32,680 nt of DNA, taken from positions 1 to 32,680 of the forward strand of contig CANCPZ010000007.1 in the NCBI GenBank assembly GCA_947380175.1. The letters are read 5' to 3'. Positions 1,779-15,892 of the stretch are shown here, in pieces (positions within the stretch are counted from its first letter, which is position 1; the number at the start of each line of letters is the position of its first letter). A model generated the notes under the pieces. The model was not told the origin of the DNA and ran no database searches. It saw only the letters and a program-made list of their open reading frames with translations. The translations under genes and the position numbers were made by a program. Source of the stretch: Bacteroidota bacterium. GTDB taxonomy: Bacteria > Bacteroidota > Bacteroidia > 2-12-FULL-35-15.

Positions 1779-1950
1779 GTGTTGGATTTATAAATTCATA
1801 AATAAATACGTTCTGCCTTTTTTTATTCGTTTTTAAAGTATCTGATAATTATTGTATTTATTCATTCATTTTAAATTAAAGAGTTGTAAAGTCCTTTTTT
1901 TATTGCAAACTATTTTTAAATTTGTAAGAATGTTATTTTACAAATTAGCA

Positions 1951-3492
1951 ATGAACAAAAACTGTACGTTAAATCTAACTATTTATATATTTTTTTTATT
2001 TTCAATACGTACATCTTCTTCAGTTGCTCAATTAAAAGTAGAGGAGGTTATTCAAAAAATTATTACAAACAATCCTGATTTACAGGCGAATTCAAAAAAA
2101 ATAAATCAGGCAACAGGTATTCTTCTTCAAGCTAAAGGTTCTTTTAATACAACCTATTCCGCAAATTTTAATAAGGCGCTTGCTAAAACAGATTATACTT
2201 ACGAATCTCCAACTTTATCTACACCAATTGATTCTTGGAATTATTCCGTGGGTGTTTCGCGCAAGTTGCCCTGGGGTATGGTTATTTCGCCATCTGTGGG
2301 AGTTAAAAATTATGGTTATGTCGAGTCGTATCCAGGGAAAGGAGATGTGTTAACTAATCATGGTGTTGCTTCTTTAAGGGTTGTGCAGCCTTTATTATTA
2401 GGGCTTGGTAAAAAATACAATATGGCAAATATTCGTAACGCACAGCTAGCTATTTCTGCTACCGAACACGAATATATTTATCAAGCATCAGAAATTATTT
2501 TACAAAGTTTAGAAACATATATACAATATATAGGTGCTTATCAGAATTTACTTATTCAAATTCAAACGGAAGCAAGTTTAAATAAAGCTATTGTCGATGT
2601 AAATCGTTTGATAAAATTGGATGCATTACCTGCATCTGAAGTTATCATTCTCGAGGCCCAATTATCCAATCAAAGAGCAATGCATAAGCTTGCTGAAAAT
2701 AAAATGGAGTCAGTAAAAAATCAATTAGGGGCACTAATGGGATTAAAAGAAGAAGAAATTTATTCAATGCCGCTTCCTGATACTGTTTTTCCTGTAACAT
2801 TTTCTAATAGCACTATTAATGAGGATTTTATTAAAAATTGGTTAGATAAATCTTTCGTAAACCGACATGATTACATGGCTCTTGAAAAAAATATACAAAG
2901 TGCTGAACTGGATTGTTTTGTTAGTAAAAAAAGTGTAAAACCTCGATTAGATTTAACTCTGACCACTGGTTATACTGGTTTATCACAGGCGTTAAATTCA
3001 GAACAATATTACCAGTCATTAACACAAAATATTCCGGGTGTGAACTACATGGTTGGGCTTTCATTCGTTTTTTTAGGAAAAAATGACTATGCAAAAGGAA
3101 AAGAAATAGAAACACTTTCAACATTGGATATATTAGAAGAGCAGAAAAAAAAATTAATTTTAAATATTCATAATCAAATAAAACAAACTGGAAATAATTA
3201 TAAAAACAATGCTCAAGTGGTAGGATTCTTAAGTGAATCCGAAAAAAATTATAAAAAAGCATACCAAAATGAAATAAGAAAATTTCAAGCAGGTACCTCT
3301 ACATCATTTATTGTTGTTCAGGTTCAGAATGATTATTTATTGTCAAAAAATCAATTGGTATCATTATTAACAGACCTTAATATTTCAGTTCTTGAATTTC
3401 GTCATAACACCGGTACTTTAATTGAAGCACAATCGGATAACACATTTAATATTAATCCCACAAAAATTTTTACATTGCCTTTGGCTAAATAA
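1951..3492 (+). CDS. TolC family outer membrane efflux protein
   Basis: Signal-peptide-like N-terminus followed by a TolC-type repeat (VEEVIQKIITNNPDLQANSKKINQATG; VVQVQNDYLLSKNQLVSLLTDLNISVLEFRHNTGTL). It sits directly upstream of an HlyD-type adaptor. The ORF track starts at a TTG at 1852; ATG 1951 (MNKNCTLNLTIYIFFLF) gives a better signal peptide. Confidence 0.9.
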   Translation: MNKNCTLNLTIYIFFLFSIRTSSSVAQLKVEEVIQKIITNNPDLQANSKKINQATGILLQAKGSFNTTYSANFNKALAKTDYTYESPTLSTPIDSWNYSVGVSRKLPWGMVISPSVGVKNYGYVESYPGKGDVLTNHGVASLRVVQPLLLGLGKKYNMANIRNAQLAISATEHEYIYQASEIILQSLETYIQYIGAYQNLLIQIQTEASLNKAIVDVNRLIKLDALPASEVIILEAQLSNQRAMHKLAENKMESVKNQLGALMGLKEEEIYSMPLPDTVFPVTFSNSTINEDFIKNWLDKSFVNRHDYMALEKNIQSAELDCFVSKKSVKPRLDLTLTTGYTGLSQALNSEQYYQSLTQNIPGVNYMVGLSFVFLGKNDYAKGKEIETLSTLDILEEQKKKLILNIHNQIKQTGNNYKNNAQVVGFLSESEKNYKKAYQNEIRKFQAGTSTSFIVVQVQNDYLLSKNQLVSLLTDLNISVLEFRHNTGTLIEAQSDNTFNINPTKIFTLPLAK

Positions 3493-3501
3493 AAACACAC
3501 A

Positions 3502-4767
3502 ATGAGTCAACTTTTTAGAAAAGATGCTTTAGATAAACTTCAATCACCAGAACGTCTCAATGAGATGGTTCAGATTACCAACAAAAAAGCATGGTTTGCC
3601 CTTTGTGGTATTGGTGGTATGCTTATTATTGGAATTATTTGGTGCTTTTTGGGTCGCATTCCTGAAACAGTGAAGGGAGATGGAATGTTACTTCAGCCTG
3701 AAGGTGTTACTGAAATAGTTGTAAGTGGAACAGGAATTCTTTCAAAGATTACAGTTAAAGAGGGCGCACTTGTTCATAAAGGTGATGTCCTTGCATATTT
3801 ATCGATTCCTGAAATGGAAATGCAAATTTCGAATGCTCAAAAAAATCTATTAGAGTCGAAAGAGTATTTTGATGATCTTAGTTTGTTTGACGAAAAAGAT
3901 ATTTCCATGCGTCAGAATTTACTCGGTAAAAAAGAAAATCTTCAAAATAATACGATTAAGTCAAACGAGCAACTATTGCAGTTTTATAAAGATAAAATTA
4001 CATCTCAAGAAGCTTTATTAAAAGATGGTTTGATAACTAAAGAAACTATTTTAAATACACGAAATGAATATTTTCGTTTGCAACAGCAACAAGATGGTTT
4101 AAAGAATGAAATTGTTTCGGTAGGTTTGGATATGTTTCAAAATGTAAATCAAAAAGATAAAGAGCGTAAAATCATGAAGCAAAAAATCAATGATGCAGAA
4201 CGTAATCTTCAACAAATAAAAACATTGTATGGTTTGATGGGTACTATTTATAGTAGCACAACAGGAACTGTTATCGAAATTCTTGCAAATACCGGTAATA
4301 TGCTTATACCTGGAACCACATTGATGCGTGTAGAACCAACAAAAGAAAATGAAGCATTAGAGTGCAATATTTATGTTAGATCTACCGAGGGTAAACGCGT
4401 TGTGCCTGGAATGAAAGTAAAAATTTCTCCGTCTACTGTTGAGCGTGAGGAATATGGTTTTATTGTTGGTACCGTAACGTATGTTTCTCAATATCCTGCC
4501 TCTTTTCAAGGAATGGTTCGCATATTGGGCAATAAAGATATTTCTCAATCCTTTATGACTCAAGGCGGTCCGCCAATATCCATAAGGGTTGCACTTGATA
4601 AGTCAAGTGCAACATATAGTGGTTATCAATGGACATCCGGTAAAGGACCAAATACAAAAATAAAAACAGGAACTATTTGTACGGCTCAAATAGAAGTGAA
4701 TTCGAAACGACCAGTAGAACTTTTGTTTATTAAACTGGACAAATTAAGACATAGCGACAGGTGGTAA
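3502..4767 (+). CDS. HlyD-family membrane fusion protein, NHLM bacteriocin-system secretion protein type
   Basis: Single N-terminal TM, lipoyl-like halves (GILSKITVKEGALVHKGDVLAYLSIPE) and a coiled coil. Lies between TolC and the PCAT transporter; its stop overlaps the next gene. Confidence 0.9.
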   Translation: MSQLFRKDALDKLQSPERLNEMVQITNKKAWFALCGIGGMLIIGIIWCFLGRIPETVKGDGMLLQPEGVTEIVVSGTGILSKITVKEGALVHKGDVLAYLSIPEMEMQISNAQKNLLESKEYFDDLSLFDEKDISMRQNLLGKKENLQNNTIKSNEQLLQFYKDKITSQEALLKDGLITKETILNTRNEYFRLQQQQDGLKNEIVSVGLDMFQNVNQKDKERKIMKQKINDAERNLQQIKTLYGLMGTIYSSTTGTVIEILANTGNMLIPGTTLMRVEPTKENEALECNIYVRSTEGKRVVPGMKVKISPSTVEREEYGFIVGTVTYVSQYPASFQGMVRILGNKDISQSFMTQGGPPISIRVALDKSSATYSGYQWTSGKGPNTKIKTGTICTAQIEVNSKRPVELLFIKLDKLRHSDRW

Positions 4768-6923
4768 AAAAAGGTTATGTAAATACACCAATAGTTCTTC
4801 AGATGGAGGCCGTAGAGTGTGGGGCTGCAAGCCTTAGCATGATACTTCGCTATTATGGAAGGTTTCAGCCATTGGATAGATTACGTGTAGATTGCGATGT
4901 TTCAAGGGATGGAAGTAAAGCAGGAAACATTTTACGTGCAGCGCGATTGCATGGTCTTGAAGCCAAAGGTTTTAAAATGGAGGTTCCTGATTTAGAAGAT
5001 GTAGTTATGCCCGTAATTATCCACTGGAACTTTAATCACTTTTTGGTTTTAGAAGGAAGGGATAAAAAATGGTATTACTTGAATGACCCTCAAACAGGTC
5101 ATAAAAAGGTCTCTCACGAAGAATTTCATGGTTCGTTTACTGGAATTGTTTTATCATTCTCACCTTCCAGTACTTTTGAAAAAACAAGTAATAAAAACCC
5201 ACTTTGGTCTGGATTAAAAGATAGATTAGTGCCGCATAAATCGGCAGTATCTTTTTTAATCATCATTGGTTTTTTGTTAATTATTCCTGGATTAATTATT
5301 CCAAGTTTTTCAAAAGTTTTTGTAGATAATATTTTGATTAAGGGTTCTAAAGATTGGTTGTGGCCATTAATTGCTGGTATGACCTTAACATTTAGTTTGC
5401 GTTTTTTTCTTGAGAATATTAAATATAAATATTTGCTAAAAACAAATAGCAAGATAGATTTGATTACTTCGGCAGCTTTTTTTTGGCATGTTTTAAGTTT
5501 GCCGATTAACTTTTTTACACAACGTCATCCTGGTGAAATAGGCAGTAGGGTAGGAGTTAATAGCAAGGTCGCAGGTTTTATTTCAGGGGAGTTTGCCAAT
5601 AATTTTCTAGATATTATTAAGGTTGTTTTTTTTGCATTATTAATGTGGTTATACTCCCCCTTGCTTACCTTAATTGGTATTTTTCTATCAGCCATCAATG
5701 TGTTAATATTAAAGTATTTTTCTTTAAAACGGAAAGAAGGATATATACGTTATTCTAAAGAAGCTGGCAATTTAAGTGGTGTAACAATGGCTGGATTACA
5801 AACAATCGAAACATTAAAAGCAACAGGTCGTGAAAATGATTTTTTTGTTCGGTGGTCAGGCCAATTTACAAAAGTGCTTAATTCGGAGCAGGAGTTGGCG
5901 TTGACATCAATTTTAATGAATTCAATGCCTGCTTTAGTTAATCTTTTAATAAATGTTTCTGTACTTATTTTTGGTGCTTGGAAAGTTATGAATGGTCAAC
6001 TTACAATGGGTATGTTAGTTGCTTTTCAAAGTTTAATGGTTAGCTTTTCTGGTTCGGTAGCTAATTTAATTGGCTTAGGAGCATATCTGCAGGAAATGGA
6101 AGGTGACTTAACACGTTTGGATGATATCATGAAAACAGAGGGAGATAAAACCGTATTGAAAGCAAGAAAAAATGTAGAAAAAGATTATTCCATTTATGGA
6201 CAAAAACTGGAAGGTTATATTGATTTTAAAAATGTAACTTTTGGGTATAGTAGATTGGCAGCCCCATTGATTGAAAATTTTTCGTTAAGTGTTACACCTG
6301 GTCAACGTATAGCATTGGTTGGTGGATCGGGAAGTGGTAAATCTACTTTAGCTAAAGTTCTTGCAGGATTATATGAGCCAGTAAAAGGAAAAATTTTATT
6401 GGATGGCGTACCTTCTAATAAATGGTCGCGTCAGGTAATAAATAATTCGGTTGCAATGGTTGATCAGGATATTTTTTTATTTGAAGGTAAAATTCGGGAT
6501 GTGTTAACTTTCTGGGATGATGATATAACAGAACAACAGATTATTAAGGCTGCTAAAGATGCTGAAATACACGATCTTATTGCATCTAAAAAAGAAGGAT
6601 ATGATTTTATTATTAATGAAGGTGGTGGTAATTTTTCTGGTGGTCAGCGTCAACGCTTGGAAATTGCAAGAGCATTGGTTGGTAATCCATCTATTTTAAT
6701 TTTAGATGAAGCAACAAGTGCATTGGATCCTCCTACCGAAAAATTAGTGTATGACAATATAAAAAAAAGAAAATGTACCGTGATAGTTGTAGCACACAGA
6801 TTAAGCACAATACGCGATTCTGATGAAATTATTATGCTCGATGGTGGAAAAATAATTGAAAGAGGAACACATTCAGACCTTGTTAAATTACAAGGTAAAT
6901 ATTACGAACTTATTAAAATGTAA
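4761..6923 (+). CDS. Peptidase-containing ABC transporter (C39 peptidase + TMD + ATPase), NHLM-type PCAT
   Basis: C39 domain with Q/Cys (LQMEAVECGAASLSMILRYYG), His (IIHWNFNHFLVLEG) and Asp (YYLNDPQTG). ATPase Walker A GGSGSGKST, signature FSGGQRQRLEIARAL, Walker B ILILDEATSALD, H-loop VAHRLST. GTG start at 4761 overlaps the upstream stop. Confidence 0.95.
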   Translation: MVKKGYVNTPIVLQMEAVECGAASLSMILRYYGRFQPLDRLRVDCDVSRDGSKAGNILRAARLHGLEAKGFKMEVPDLEDVVMPVIIHWNFNHFLVLEGRDKKWYYLNDPQTGHKKVSHEEFHGSFTGIVLSFSPSSTFEKTSNKNPLWSGLKDRLVPHKSAVSFLIIIGFLLIIPGLIIPSFSKVFVDNILIKGSKDWLWPLIAGMTLTFSLRFFLENIKYKYLLKTNSKIDLITSAAFFWHVLSLPINFFTQRHPGEIGSRVGVNSKVAGFISGEFANNFLDIIKVVFFALLMWLYSPLLTLIGIFLSAINVLILKYFSLKRKEGYIRYSKEAGNLSGVTMAGLQTIETLKATGRENDFFVRWSGQFTKVLNSEQELALTSILMNSMPALVNLLINVSVLIFGAWKVMNGQLTMGMLVAFQSLMVSFSGSVANLIGLGAYLQEMEGDLTRLDDIMKTEGDKTVLKARKNVEKDYSIYGQKLEGYIDFKNVTFGYSRLAAPLIENFSLSVTPGQRIALVGGSGSGKSTLAKVLAGLYEPVKGKILLDGVPSNKWSRQVINNSVAMVDQDIFLFEGKIRDVLTFWDDDITEQQIIKAAKDAEIHDLIASKKEGYDFIINEGGGNFSGGQRQRLEIARALVGNPSILILDEATSALDPPTEKLVYDNIKKRKCTVIVVAHRLSTIRDSDEIIMLDGGKIIERGTHSDLVKLQGKYYELIKM

Positions 6924-6925
6924 TT

Positions 6926-9847
6926 TTGGATTTTACAGTAGAAAATATTTTTACCAAACAAGGTAAGCTTATATTAACGGATATTCATTCTCCTTTTTTG
7001 GCTAATGATCCTACAAAAATTTGGTTTATAGCCAAAGGACAAATTAATTTAAGTGGTACTAAAGTTGTTGGAGATGCTCCTATTGGTAAGGTTCAGGATT
7101 TTGCTACCTTAAAAAAGGGAGATGTTTTTTTAGGGATAAAGTTAGATAGCTATAATTCATTAAGCTTTATGGCATCGCCTCAGGAGGAAACTGAATTATA
7201 TGAATTAGAGATTGAATTTTTAAAAGAGTACGCTTTAAAAAATCCACACTCATCGGCAGAGTTTGAAGCTATATTGCGCAATTGGTTAACAATTTTATTT
7301 AGTGGTCTTGAAGAAGGTTTTACCCTTCAACAGCCTGATACAGATATTCATTTAAGGGTTGGTAAAAACGAAACATTATTAAAGAATCAAGTTGTCTCCT
7401 CTATTGGTCAAATTATTTGGTGCGAACCAAGTAATCCCAATGCGTTTGTTTATAATGATTTGGTTGCTGTAGAAACTGATGTAAAAGGAATTCTTTTGCC
7501 TCTTTCTAGAAAAGTGTATATAAGGGTTATTGAAGATACAAATGTTGTTTGCCCTGAATTAGAAGGACTTCTTAAGAAAAAAGAATTATGGGAAGGGCTT
7601 AATATCTTTCATCACATTGTAGTAGAAATTCAGCTCATACGTTTTAAAAACGACGAAGAACAGGAAAGGCAGCGGCTTATAAGAAAACATCAGAAGGAAG
7701 ATGAAAATTTGCTTGACATGTTGGATCAGGCCAAGCGCGTTCTAAATTCAACCAAAAGTGATTTCTTTGATTTAGATATTGAAAAATCTAACAATTTGCT
7801 TTTTGATGCATTACAAATTGTAGCTAAACAAAACGATATTAAGCTCGTACTGCCTCCTCAACTAAATGATTGTAATGATCCTTTAGAAGAAATTAGTCGT
7901 TTCTCTTGTATTCGTTATCGAGAAATAAGTTTAGAAGGTAAATGGTATAAAAAAGATAATGGTCCTTTCCTTGCATTTTATGGTGATCAATACGAGCCTG
8001 TTGCAATAATAAATACTAAAGGGAATAATTATCTGATAATTAATCCAGCAACAAAGGAAAAAATTATACTTACTCCCGAAAATGCAAAAAAAGTTTCCAA
8101 TGTAGGGTATATGCTATACAAGTCTCTACCAACAGAAATAAAAGGATTAAAAGAAATTTTAGCATTTTGTCTTTCAAAAGATCGATCTGATTATTATTTT
8201 CTAGTTGTTTTAGGATTGCTTGTTACTGTTTTGGGAATGGTAACACCTTTTTTTACCTCCTTTATTTTTGATAACATTATTTTAAATGCTGAAAAAAAGC
8301 AATTAATTTATGTCGGATTAGGCATTGCAATGGCAGGTGTTGCATCGTTTTTATTCGAACTTTCTAAAAGTTATGCATTGCTTAGAATTGAAAGCAAAAT
8401 GGATAGCACCTTGCAAGCTGGTGTTTGGGATAGGATATTAAATTTACCTACCACTTTTTTTACTCAATATACAGCTGGTGATTTAGCTAACCGTTCATTA
8501 GGAATTAATCATATTCGTCAGGTGCTTTCTGGAGCAGCGATTACAACTATTTTATCAGGATTATTCTCTGTAGTAAATTTAATTCTTTTGTTTTATTATA
8601 GTGTAACGCTTGCTCTTGTTGCAGTTTTGATAGTTGGAATTCAAATAGCTGTTAATGTTTATTTTGCTAGAGTTCAAATTAAAAAACAGAAACTATTAAT
8701 AGAACAAACAGGAAAAATAGAAGGCATTGTTTTGCAATTACTTACTGGAATAACAAAATTTAGGGTTTCTGGCACTGAACATAAAGCCTTTGGTCATTGG
8801 TTTAAACATTATTTACCTATAAAAGACACGTCGATAAACTTGATTAAAACACAAAACCTTTCAACACTTTTTAATACCTATTATCAGTATTTTTCTATGA
8901 TGGTTCTTTTTGTAATGATGGCAGGTTATTCAAGCAGCACTTCAATGAGTTTAGGGGAATTTTTGTCGTTCAATGCGGCATATGGAATTTTTGCTTCCGC
9001 AATGTTTGGCTTAAGTTATACATTGATGGGGGTATTTAGTGTGTTGCCAATTTTTGAACGCACAAAACCAATACTCGATACACCAACAGAAAATAATTCA
9101 ACCAAACAATCACCTGGTCCATTAAAAGGGAGTATTGAATTTTCGCAAATTAATTTTAGTTATGAGAAAGATGGCCCACTGATTTTACAGGACATCAATA
9201 TGACAATAAGTAGTGGCGAATATGTTGCTTTTGTTGGTCCTTCTGGTTCTGGTAAATCAACTCTCATTCGATTGATATTAGGCTTTAATGAAGCTAATTC
9301 AGGGACAATTTATTTTGATGGTCAAAATTTAAACAACGTTGATCCACGCATGGTACGGCAACAAATTGGTGTTGTTTTGCAAAATGGTAGTTTGTTTTCA
9401 GGTGATATTTTTAAAAACATTACTGGCGCATCTGGTAATTTAACCATTCAACAGGCATGGGATGCAGCAGAGTCGGCGGCTTTTGATGAAGATATTAAAA
9501 AAATGCCAATGGGTATGCACACAATGGTTAGTGAATCGGGCAGTACTATTTCTGGCGGACAAAAACAACGTTTAATGATTGCGAGAGCATTGGTGCATAA
9601 GCCTAAAATTTTAATTTTTGACGAAGCTACATCGGCTTTAGATAATAGAACTCAGGCCATTGTAACTAAAAGTTTAGATGAGTTGGAAGTAACGCGTATT
9701 GTAGTAGCACATCGTTTAAGTACCATTAAAGGTGCACATAAAATTTATTATTTAGAAGCAGGTAAAATTATTGAAAAAGGTAGATTTGAAGAACTCATGG
9801 CTTTGAAAGGTAAGTTTTTTGAATTAGCTAATAGGCAGATTGAGTAG
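6926..9847 (+). CDS. ABC transporter permease/ATP-binding protein with long N-terminal extension, NHLM-type second transporter
   Basis: A ~400 aa N-terminal extension (cNMP/cupin-like start WFIAKGQINL...KKGDVFLGIKL) precedes the TMD and an ATPase (GPSGSGKST, ISGGQKQRLMIARAL, ILIFDEATSALD, VAHRLST). TTG start 2 nt after the preceding stop. Confidence 0.93.
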   Translation: MDFTVENIFTKQGKLILTDIHSPFLANDPTKIWFIAKGQINLSGTKVVGDAPIGKVQDFATLKKGDVFLGIKLDSYNSLSFMASPQEETELYELEIEFLKEYALKNPHSSAEFEAILRNWLTILFSGLEEGFTLQQPDTDIHLRVGKNETLLKNQVVSSIGQIIWCEPSNPNAFVYNDLVAVETDVKGILLPLSRKVYIRVIEDTNVVCPELEGLLKKKELWEGLNIFHHIVVEIQLIRFKNDEEQERQRLIRKHQKEDENLLDMLDQAKRVLNSTKSDFFDLDIEKSNNLLFDALQIVAKQNDIKLVLPPQLNDCNDPLEEISRFSCIRYREISLEGKWYKKDNGPFLAFYGDQYEPVAIINTKGNNYLIINPATKEKIILTPENAKKVSNVGYMLYKSLPTEIKGLKEILAFCLSKDRSDYYFLVVLGLLVTVLGMVTPFFTSFIFDNIILNAEKKQLIYVGLGIAMAGVASFLFELSKSYALLRIESKMDSTLQAGVWDRILNLPTTFFTQYTAGDLANRSLGINHIRQVLSGAAITTILSGLFSVVNLILLFYYSVTLALVAVLIVGIQIAVNVYFARVQIKKQKLLIEQTGKIEGIVLQLLTGITKFRVSGTEHKAFGHWFKHYLPIKDTSINLIKTQNLSTLFNTYYQYFSMMVLFVMMAGYSSSTSMSLGEFLSFNAAYGIFASAMFGLSYTLMGVFSVLPIFERTKPILDTPTENNSTKQSPGPLKGSIEFSQINFSYEKDGPLILQDINMTISSGEYVAFVGPSGSGKSTLIRLILGFNEANSGTIYFDGQNLNNVDPRMVRQQIGVVLQNGSLFSGDIFKNITGASGNLTIQQAWDAAESAAFDEDIKKMPMGMHTMVSESGSTISGGQKQRLMIARALVHKPKILIFDEATSALDNRTQAIVTKSLDELEVTRIVVAHRLSTIKGAHKIYYLEAGKIIEKGRFEELMALKGKFFELANRQIE

Positions 9848-9859
9848 TGTTTTCAAAAA

Positions 9860-10465
9860 ATGATCAAAAAAATCCTTCCCATTATTTTTATTCTAATTGT
9901 TTTAAATATAACAGCGCAAAATAAGTTTTCGCAAATTTCTCGCCCCGAAAAGATTTGGGTTTTAATGCATCCATTTAGTTCAAAAAAAGCATTTACTATT
10001 ACTAAAAATGTTTTAATAATAGTTGATTCAATAAAAGCAATAGGAATAATTGGATGTGATATTAATGGAGGTAAATTAGATGCTTTTAAACATGCTTATT
10101 GGATGGCGAATCTTTCAAAATCAATAGGTAATAAAAAAGCGAAAAGTTTAGGAATAGCCCATGAAAAAGGAAATAAACTTCAATTTAAAAAGCAGAAAAC
10201 AGAAGATAGAATATTGCCAGATTCAATAAGTTGTGAAATGGATTTATTTAACAATATTCAAGGGATTGAAATTGGAACCAATTCCCAAAATATGAATCTT
10301 AAAGAAATGCAATTAGCTACTCTTGATACATTAAAAAATGGGAAATTGAGAGTTTTAAAAAAAGATAATAATGGAAATTACCTAACATCTCAAAATACCT
10401 TAATAAATTTGAACGATTGGTTTGGGAAATGGAATATTCCAAAATGTTTAGAACCATCTTATTGA
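9860..10465 (+). CDS. Small secreted DUF6973-like protein of unknown function
   Basis: Sec-type signal peptide (MIKKILPIIFILIVLNITAQ) followed by GGKLDAFKHAYWMANLSKSIGNKKAKSLGIAHEKGN, a core I associate with DUF6973. Starts 12 nt after the ABC gene on the same strand. Confidence 0.72.
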   Translation: MIKKILPIIFILIVLNITAQNKFSQISRPEKIWVLMHPFSSKKAFTITKNVLIIVDSIKAIGIIGCDINGGKLDAFKHAYWMANLSKSIGNKKAKSLGIAHEKGNKLQFKKQKTEDRILPDSISCEMDLFNNIQGIEIGTNSQNMNLKEMQLATLDTLKNGKLRVLKKDNNGNYLTSQNTLINLNDWFGKWNIPKCLEPSY

Positions 10466-14869: not shown

Positions 14870-15892
14870 CTATGCCCAGACTTTAGTGCCCTCTGTGCAA
14901 TTTTTGCAAATATCAATTTCGGAACGGGAGCGAAGTAGAGCAGCTCTAAAGTTTTTGTATTTTGTACTTTTCCATAATTCTTTAAATGAGGTAGTTTTTA
15001 AATCGCCCAATTGATGCTTGGCATCTTTGTCAAAACAACAAGGTACAACCAAGCCATCCCAGGTTATAACGGACGAATGCCATAACTTCCAGCAATGGTT
15101 TACCATGTTATTTTTAATGATATATGTGCCATCATTTTGCTTTTTATATCGTGTGTATTTTTCGATTGTTGGTATCAGCGAATTGCCATTTTTGTAATCA
15201 TAAATTTGGGCTGTTTTTAAACGCACTTCATCTACCCCTAATTGTTTTGCTAATTGCTCTATATCCTTTATTTGATGTTCGTTTGGCTTCACTACTAAAA
15301 ATTGAAATATAATGTGAGGTGTTTTAGATTTCAGCTCTTTTTTCCATTTAATAATATTTTGAGTGCCTTCAATTACTTTATTTAAATCGCCACCAATACG
15401 ATATTTTTGATATGTTTCCTGCGTTGTGCCGTCAATCGAAATTATTAATCGATCTAATCCGCTTTCTATTGTTTTTTTTGAATTTACATCATTTAAATAA
15501 TGTGCATTGGTAGATGTTGCAGTGTATATTTTTTTTGATGAAGCATATTTTACCATGTCTAAAAAGTTAGGATTCAGATACGGTTCGCCCTGAAAATAAA
15601 AAATTAGGTAAGAGGTTTTTTTATAAATTTCGTCAATCGTTTTTTCGAAAAAATTATTTTGTAACATCCCTGTTGGGCGAGTAAATTCGCGTTTACCACT
15701 AGGGCATTCGGGGCAACGTAAATTGCAGGAAGTGGTTGGTTCAAAAGTGATGCTGACTGGTAAGCCCCACTGTGTTGGCTTTTTACTGATTTTAGAAATG
15801 TAAAAACTTGATACAACTTGGATAAAATTCATAACTCGTCCAAAATTTAATTTGGATAAAAAGTTTAACCCATCTGTAATCTTTGTATTCAT
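14870..15892 (-). CDS. Radical SAM protein with C-terminal SPASM-like domain
   Basis: CxxxCxxC motif (TSCNLRCPECPSG), a YFQGEPYLNP segment typical of the family, and C-terminal NHCWKLWHSSVITWDGLVVPCCFD...CKNC. Confidence 0.92.
   Translation of the reverse strand: MNTKITDGLNFLSKLNFGRVMNFIQVVSSFYISKISKKPTQWGLPVSITFEPTTSCNLRCPECPSGKREFTRPTGMLQNNFFEKTIDEIYKKTSYLIFYFQGEPYLNPNFLDMVKYASSKKIYTATSTNAHYLNDVNSKKTIESGLDRLIISIDGTTQETYQKYRIGGDLNKVIEGTQNIIKWKKELKSKTPHIIFQFLVVKPNEHQIKDIEQLAKQLGVDEVRLKTAQIYDYKNGNSLIPTIEKYTRYKKQNDGTYIIKNNMVNHCWKLWHSSVITWDGLVVPCCFDKDAKHQLGDLKTTSFKELWKSTKYKNFRAALLRSRSEIDICKNCTEGTKVWA

Follow-up and report, generated by a model that had tools for sequence, protein, structure and literature searches.

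The NHLM-type exporter locus

The window analysed here spans contig C7 from end to end (32,680 nucleotides); the MAG to which it belongs measures 2.63 Mb (251 contigs, 87% complete). The left edge of the window, i.e., the contig end, falls inside a T9SS gene. Downstream of this gene lie four genes for a TolC-type outer membrane channel, an HlyD-type adaptor, a C39-peptidase ABC transporter (PCAT) and a second ABC transporter (ABC2) (Table 1). They are closely packed, with a gap of 9 nucleotides between the TolC and HlyD genes, an overlap of 7 between the HlyD and PCAT genes and a gap of 2 between the PCAT and ABC2 genes, and the next ORF (9860-10465) begins after a gap of 12. Translation of the PCAT would start at GTG and that of ABC2 at TTG, and a search for a -33/-7 promoter upstream of tolC gave no match. 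The C39 domain of the PCAT matches PF03412 (E 2.2e-33), and both ABC proteins carry Walker A, SGGQ, Walker B and H-loop motifs. An initial annotation, made from the sequence alone, had named the same four protein types and an intact set of C39 residues, and the ORFs, domain matches and motifs all agree with it.

The adaptor, PCAT and ABC2 exceed the cut-offs of all three NHLM transport models (TIGR03794, TIGR03796 and TIGR03797), each scoring far above the next best family; the NHLM/NHLP assignment, which the initial annotation had given and proposed to check by HMM search, is thereby borne out. The locus encodes a complete NHLM exporter, one more instance of an export system already known.

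Table 1. Features of the exporter locus and associated genes (positions refer to the window unless a contig is given)
Feature	Position	Strand	Details
TolC-type outer membrane channel	1930..3492	+	PF02321 OEP, E 1.6e-28; start ATG 1930 or 1951
HlyD-type adaptor, NHLM family	3502..4767	+	TIGR03794, 315.9 bits (cut-off 156.2)
C39-peptidase ABC transporter (PCAT), NHLM ABC1	4761..6923	+	TIGR03796, 1003 bits (cut-off 853.3)
PCAT C39 catalytic residues Q14, C20, H93, D109	codons within 4800..5087	+	motifs QMEAVECG, NHF, LNDP
Second ABC transporter (ABC2), NHLM ABC2	6926..9847	+	TIGR03797, 855 bits (cut-off 709.4)
ABC2 N-terminal extension, residues ~1-273	6926..7744	+	predicted cyclic-nucleotide-binding-like beta-roll region, then long helix
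Exporter cassette of four genes, apparently inserted; flanked by the host's T9SS and DUF6973 genes	1779..9859	+	
Radical SAM/SPASM protein	14873-15892		nearest TIGR04317 (tungsten cofactor maturase), below cut-off
Precursor candidate, 59-aa predicted ORF	G000:C11:1238-1417	minus	MSNSDQNQKKESVELNENELNEVAGG/GSHNIKTEKPIEHFQRSGSKIAPGGPPVEIHKK

The N-terminal extension of ABC2 was modelled with AlphaFold2 (pLDDT 85.5), and Foldseek matched the model to PKA-R and CRP. As the E-values are good (best 9e-7) while TM-scores calculated over the full query are low, the predicted likeness to a cyclic-nucleotide-binding fold is one at the domain level only. A relative of this N-terminal part was found in 9 of the 395 genomes of a wider class sample (the window's genome included). 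The ABC2 proteins of four loci from Firmicutes and Spirochaetales (L011, L018, L020 and L022) are ca. 720-740 aa long, i.e., too short for such an extension.

Insertion between host genes

The lnt neighbourhoods of twelve congeners were read, and in three of these (G008, G016 and G009) the T9SS gene, the DUF6973 gene and lnt occur together in that order without any exporter. The T9SS gene directly adjoins DUF6973 in G008 and G009, and one unrelated ORF intervenes in G016. In the window, the end of the congeners' T9SS protein (conserved ...DQYFKKGFGKMYLMR end) is reached at 1778 and the same DUF6973 follows from 9860. Given this gene order in exporter-free congeners, the exporter appears to be a four-gene insertion of ca. 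8 kb, and DUF6973 a host gene. Of the tight same-strand unit that the initial annotation had described, the gaps (9, -7, 2 and 12) are correct, but the fifth ORF, as a member of the operon, is ruled out by host synteny; the neighbourhood comparison that it had suggested bounds the exporter block by the host T9SS and DUF6973 genes.

No convincing repeats and no mobile genes were found at the edges of the block, and the exporter genes differ little from their neighbours in GC content. An ABC2 above cut-off was found in none of the 35 congeners and in none of the 23 other class members searched. The nearest relative of the exporter (L009, i.e., CALPON020000060.1, from a MAG labelled Sphingobacterium thalpophilum) has the same gene order, and the identity per protein (56-75%, with 56% for TolC) fits a horizontal transfer of the exporter. 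As for the flanking genes themselves, the 9860-10465 product (DUF6973, PF22322) is a secreted-looking protein, and 3-1778 encodes a long T9SS-related protein of which, owing to the contig end, only the C-terminal part is present; it resembles the last portion of the PorU model (E 2.2e-23) but scores far under the PorU cut-off.

A precursor candidate on another contig

Small ORFs with GG leaders were sought throughout the window, with only one chance match, inside the ABC2 gene; this is consistent with the initial annotation, which saw no precursor and placed the substrate either elsewhere in the genome or just left of the window. The latter is unlikely, as congeners have the remainder of the T9SS gene, which is ca. 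5 kb long, at that place. The former is supported by the genome-wide search that had likewise been suggested, in which the sole matching small GG-leader ORF is a 59-aa predicted ORF on contig C11, between accC and a nadB-like gene (Table 1). It has a 26-residue leader and a 33-residue basic core without Cys and with four Ser/Thr. We call it unlinked in the sense that C11 and C7 are separate contigs of the fragmented MAG.

With the L009 peptide as query, the window's genome returned one weak match (E 0.11), namely the C11 ORF. The DNA pattern [DE]Lxx[VIM]xGG was matched 14 times in the genome, compared with 3 times for a reversed control, and only in the C11 ORF does the motif occur in a small ORF at the leader position; the other thirteen matches fall either within large frames or within short ones that have no plausible leader. 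Against a leader profile that was rebuilt without it to avoid circularity, the C11 ORF scored E 2.9e-4, the next best match among the 36 genomes being E 0.0465, inside a 513-aa frame. No comparable small ORF was recovered by the leader profile in the 35 congeners, where matches to the 59-aa peptide itself were E 0.18 or worse and mostly in long frames. A second precursor in the same genome was rejected, the other profile matches being E 0.6 or worse and located inside frames of >1000 aa. Thus, among the 36 genomes of the genus, the exporter occurs only in the window's genome and so does the precursor candidate, and with one genome holding both and 35 holding neither, this co-occurrence counts as a single event in the genus, suggestive but not statistical.

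The core of the candidate belongs to no recognisable family, and searches of the precursor against NCBIfam and Pfam gave no match to TIGR03793 (NHLP) or TIGR03798/Nif11; the Nif11 or nitrile-hydratase-leader substrate that the initial annotation considered usual for such systems is therefore not what the candidate leader resembles. At the precursor gene, no terminator was called and promoter predictions stayed near chance level.

From identities to congener orthologues, which amount to 90-94% for accC on C11 and 58-69% for lnt on C7, both contigs belong to this genus. In tetranucleotide use they differ by 0.117, and either differs from the compared congener loci by at least 0.147, making C7 and C11 the closest pair among the compared loci. 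Still, the bin may mix two very close species, and since the MAG is incomplete and fragmented, further precursors may be absent from it. An Rfam search gave no match and a tRNA search found none.

Related loci in Bacteroidia

All eight Bacteroidia loci in which the full set is visible (L009, L075-L079, L081 and L082) share the order TolC-HlyD-PCAT-ABC2, and the TolC gene within the operon, which the initial annotation had singled out, is indeed present, being the rule in Bacteroidia NHLM loci and no peculiarity here. These loci, together with the window, fall into a minimal and a larger type. The minimal type (window, L009, L075 and L076) consists of short-leader precursors and the four transport genes. 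In L009 the precursor is a 75-aa GG-leader ORF with ELNENDLSKVAGG, located 378 bases upstream of tolC; the same leader type lies beside tolC in L075 (four copies) and L076. The L009 precursor is thus next to its exporter whereas that of the window is on another contig, and their cores differ. The C39 motifs of the PCAT are conserved in L009, L075 and L076. The last two loci are flanked by uvrD and the rpsG-fusA region (ribosomal protein/fusA operon) and contain no maturase.

The larger loci (L077-L079, L081 and L082) keep the same order of transport genes but, where readable, add two genes that the window's minimal type is without: DUF7005 (PF22541) after ABC2 in L077, L078, L079 and L081, possibly an accessory protein, and a cNMP-binding gene before TolC in L078, L079, L081 and L082. 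Their leaders are long and NHLP-like, and radical SAM or JmjC genes are sometimes nearby. In L082, a 377-aa ORF follows ABC2 and the precursor matches TIGR03793 under its cut-off (E 3.4e-6).

Leader matches were obtained in six other Bacteroidia genomes, and in five of these every credible match is linked to the exporter; in G298, an NHLP-type precursor (L167, G298:C7:71389-71454) is on a contig other than that of the exporter. An unlinked precursor is hence unusual but not unique.

Tentatively, and with somewhat less than even confidence, we consider that the window, L009, L075 and L076 may represent a minimal Bacteroidia NHLM subtype, devoted to unmodified peptides that have no Cys and carry short leaders of a non-NHLP kind, and lacking DUF7005, the cNMP-binding gene and maturases, in which the transport genes would be inserted as a four-gene block and the precursor can become unlinked. 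Two loci have unusual frames: an ABC2-like protein of 935 aa in G371 (L080:10499-13306) has no TolC, HlyD or PCAT nearby, and the PCAT at L077:4660-6887 is split into two overlapping frames, possibly through a frameshift or an assembly error.

Proposed export route and alternative explanations

For the family it is established by homology that PCATs remove GG leaders with their C39 domains in the course of export. We regard it as probable that the complete NHLM-type peptide exporter of the window arrived as a block of four genes and that it processes the unlinked C11 precursor. After synthesis of the 59-aa precursor in the cytoplasm, the C39 domain of the PCAT would bind the 26-residue leader and cut after the Gly-Gly (G26); the PCAT, assisted by ABC2, would drive the 33-residue Cys-free basic core out, and HlyD and TolC would carry it over the outer membrane. 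The initial annotation saw no adjacent maturase, and in the window we likewise found no dedicated one linked to the exporter. The radical SAM/SPASM gene, which lies 9 kb off the start of the PCAT operon, was rejected in this role because it is common in the genus, occurring in 24 exporter-free congeners at 74-82% identity. Given that no dedicated maturase was seen, the simplest reading is that of an unmodified peptide, class II bacteriocin-like or signalling, although either role is at present a guess by analogy.

Proteins of the TolC, HlyD and ABC kinds are also common to type I secretion and multidrug systems, and the operon could in principle serve a large protein or a drug. This is highly improbable: the NHLM models outscore all T1SS and multidrug models, and HlyB (401.7 bits, own cut-off 725.6), type_I_hlyD (77.3 bits, own cut-off 208.7), LssB, bacteriocin_ABC, MsbA and the multidrug models all stay under, and the T1SS and multidrug families far under, their own cut-offs. 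The related loci lack a large RTX-like neighbour and present small GG-leader ORFs instead, so that neither better T1SS or multidrug scores nor a large linked substrate in homologous loci, which the initial annotation had named as evidence against itself, was found.

More weight is due to two explanations that accept the exporter but differ on its substrate, both of which we deem unlikely. The main substrate could be encoded in the missing 13% of the genome, the C11 peptide being a minor or chance substrate; the MAG is only 87% complete and precursors in related genomes usually lie beside the exporter, often in several copies, but the right flank of the exporter is readable, the left flank is occupied by the long T9SS gene in congeners, and the leader-profile match is specific to the window's genome. 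Alternatively, the peptide could be post-translationally modified (RiPP) by a maturase encoded elsewhere. Classic NHLM exporters carry thiazole/oxazole-modified or lanthionine peptides (PMC2887384), and radical SAM and JmjC genes do occur near other Bacteroidia NHLM loci; against this, the C11 core offers no Cys and few Ser/Thr, the minimal loci L075 and L076 contain no maturase, and the radical SAM gene of the window is shared with exporter-free congeners. We thus favor export of the C11 peptide, probably unmodified.

The arrangement agrees with the NHLM/NHLP system (Haft, Basu and Mitchell 2010, PMC2887384) in that three transport families above cut-off form one operon, the C39 triad is intact and the genome contains a GG-leader precursor candidate. 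It differs in the short leader, neither NHLP nor Nif11, in the unlinked precursor and in that no dedicated maturase is seen. The exporter was reported to be more widespread than NHLP precursors and capable of leading to further peptide families (Haft, PMC2887384), and the short-leader peptides are candidates for one further Bacteroidota family of the kind foreseen there. The orphan exporter can now be tested as one half of an exporter-peptide pair, made up of one C39 domain and one 59-aa peptide, for which four related loci serve as comparison; neighbourhood mining alone would have missed the candidate substrate. Of these results, it is the grouping of minimal loci with short leaders and no maturase that may merit a closer look.

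Bacteroidetocins (PMC6671954), peptides of Bacteroidetes, likewise have GG leaders and leave the cell through a C39 ABC transporter. As presented in the portion of that source used for this comparison, they differ from the C11 candidate in having four Cys and leaders of 15-16 aa; no HlyD/TolC/ABC2 set is described in that portion, and their clusters also encode a membrane protein and, in most cases, a thiol oxidoreductase.
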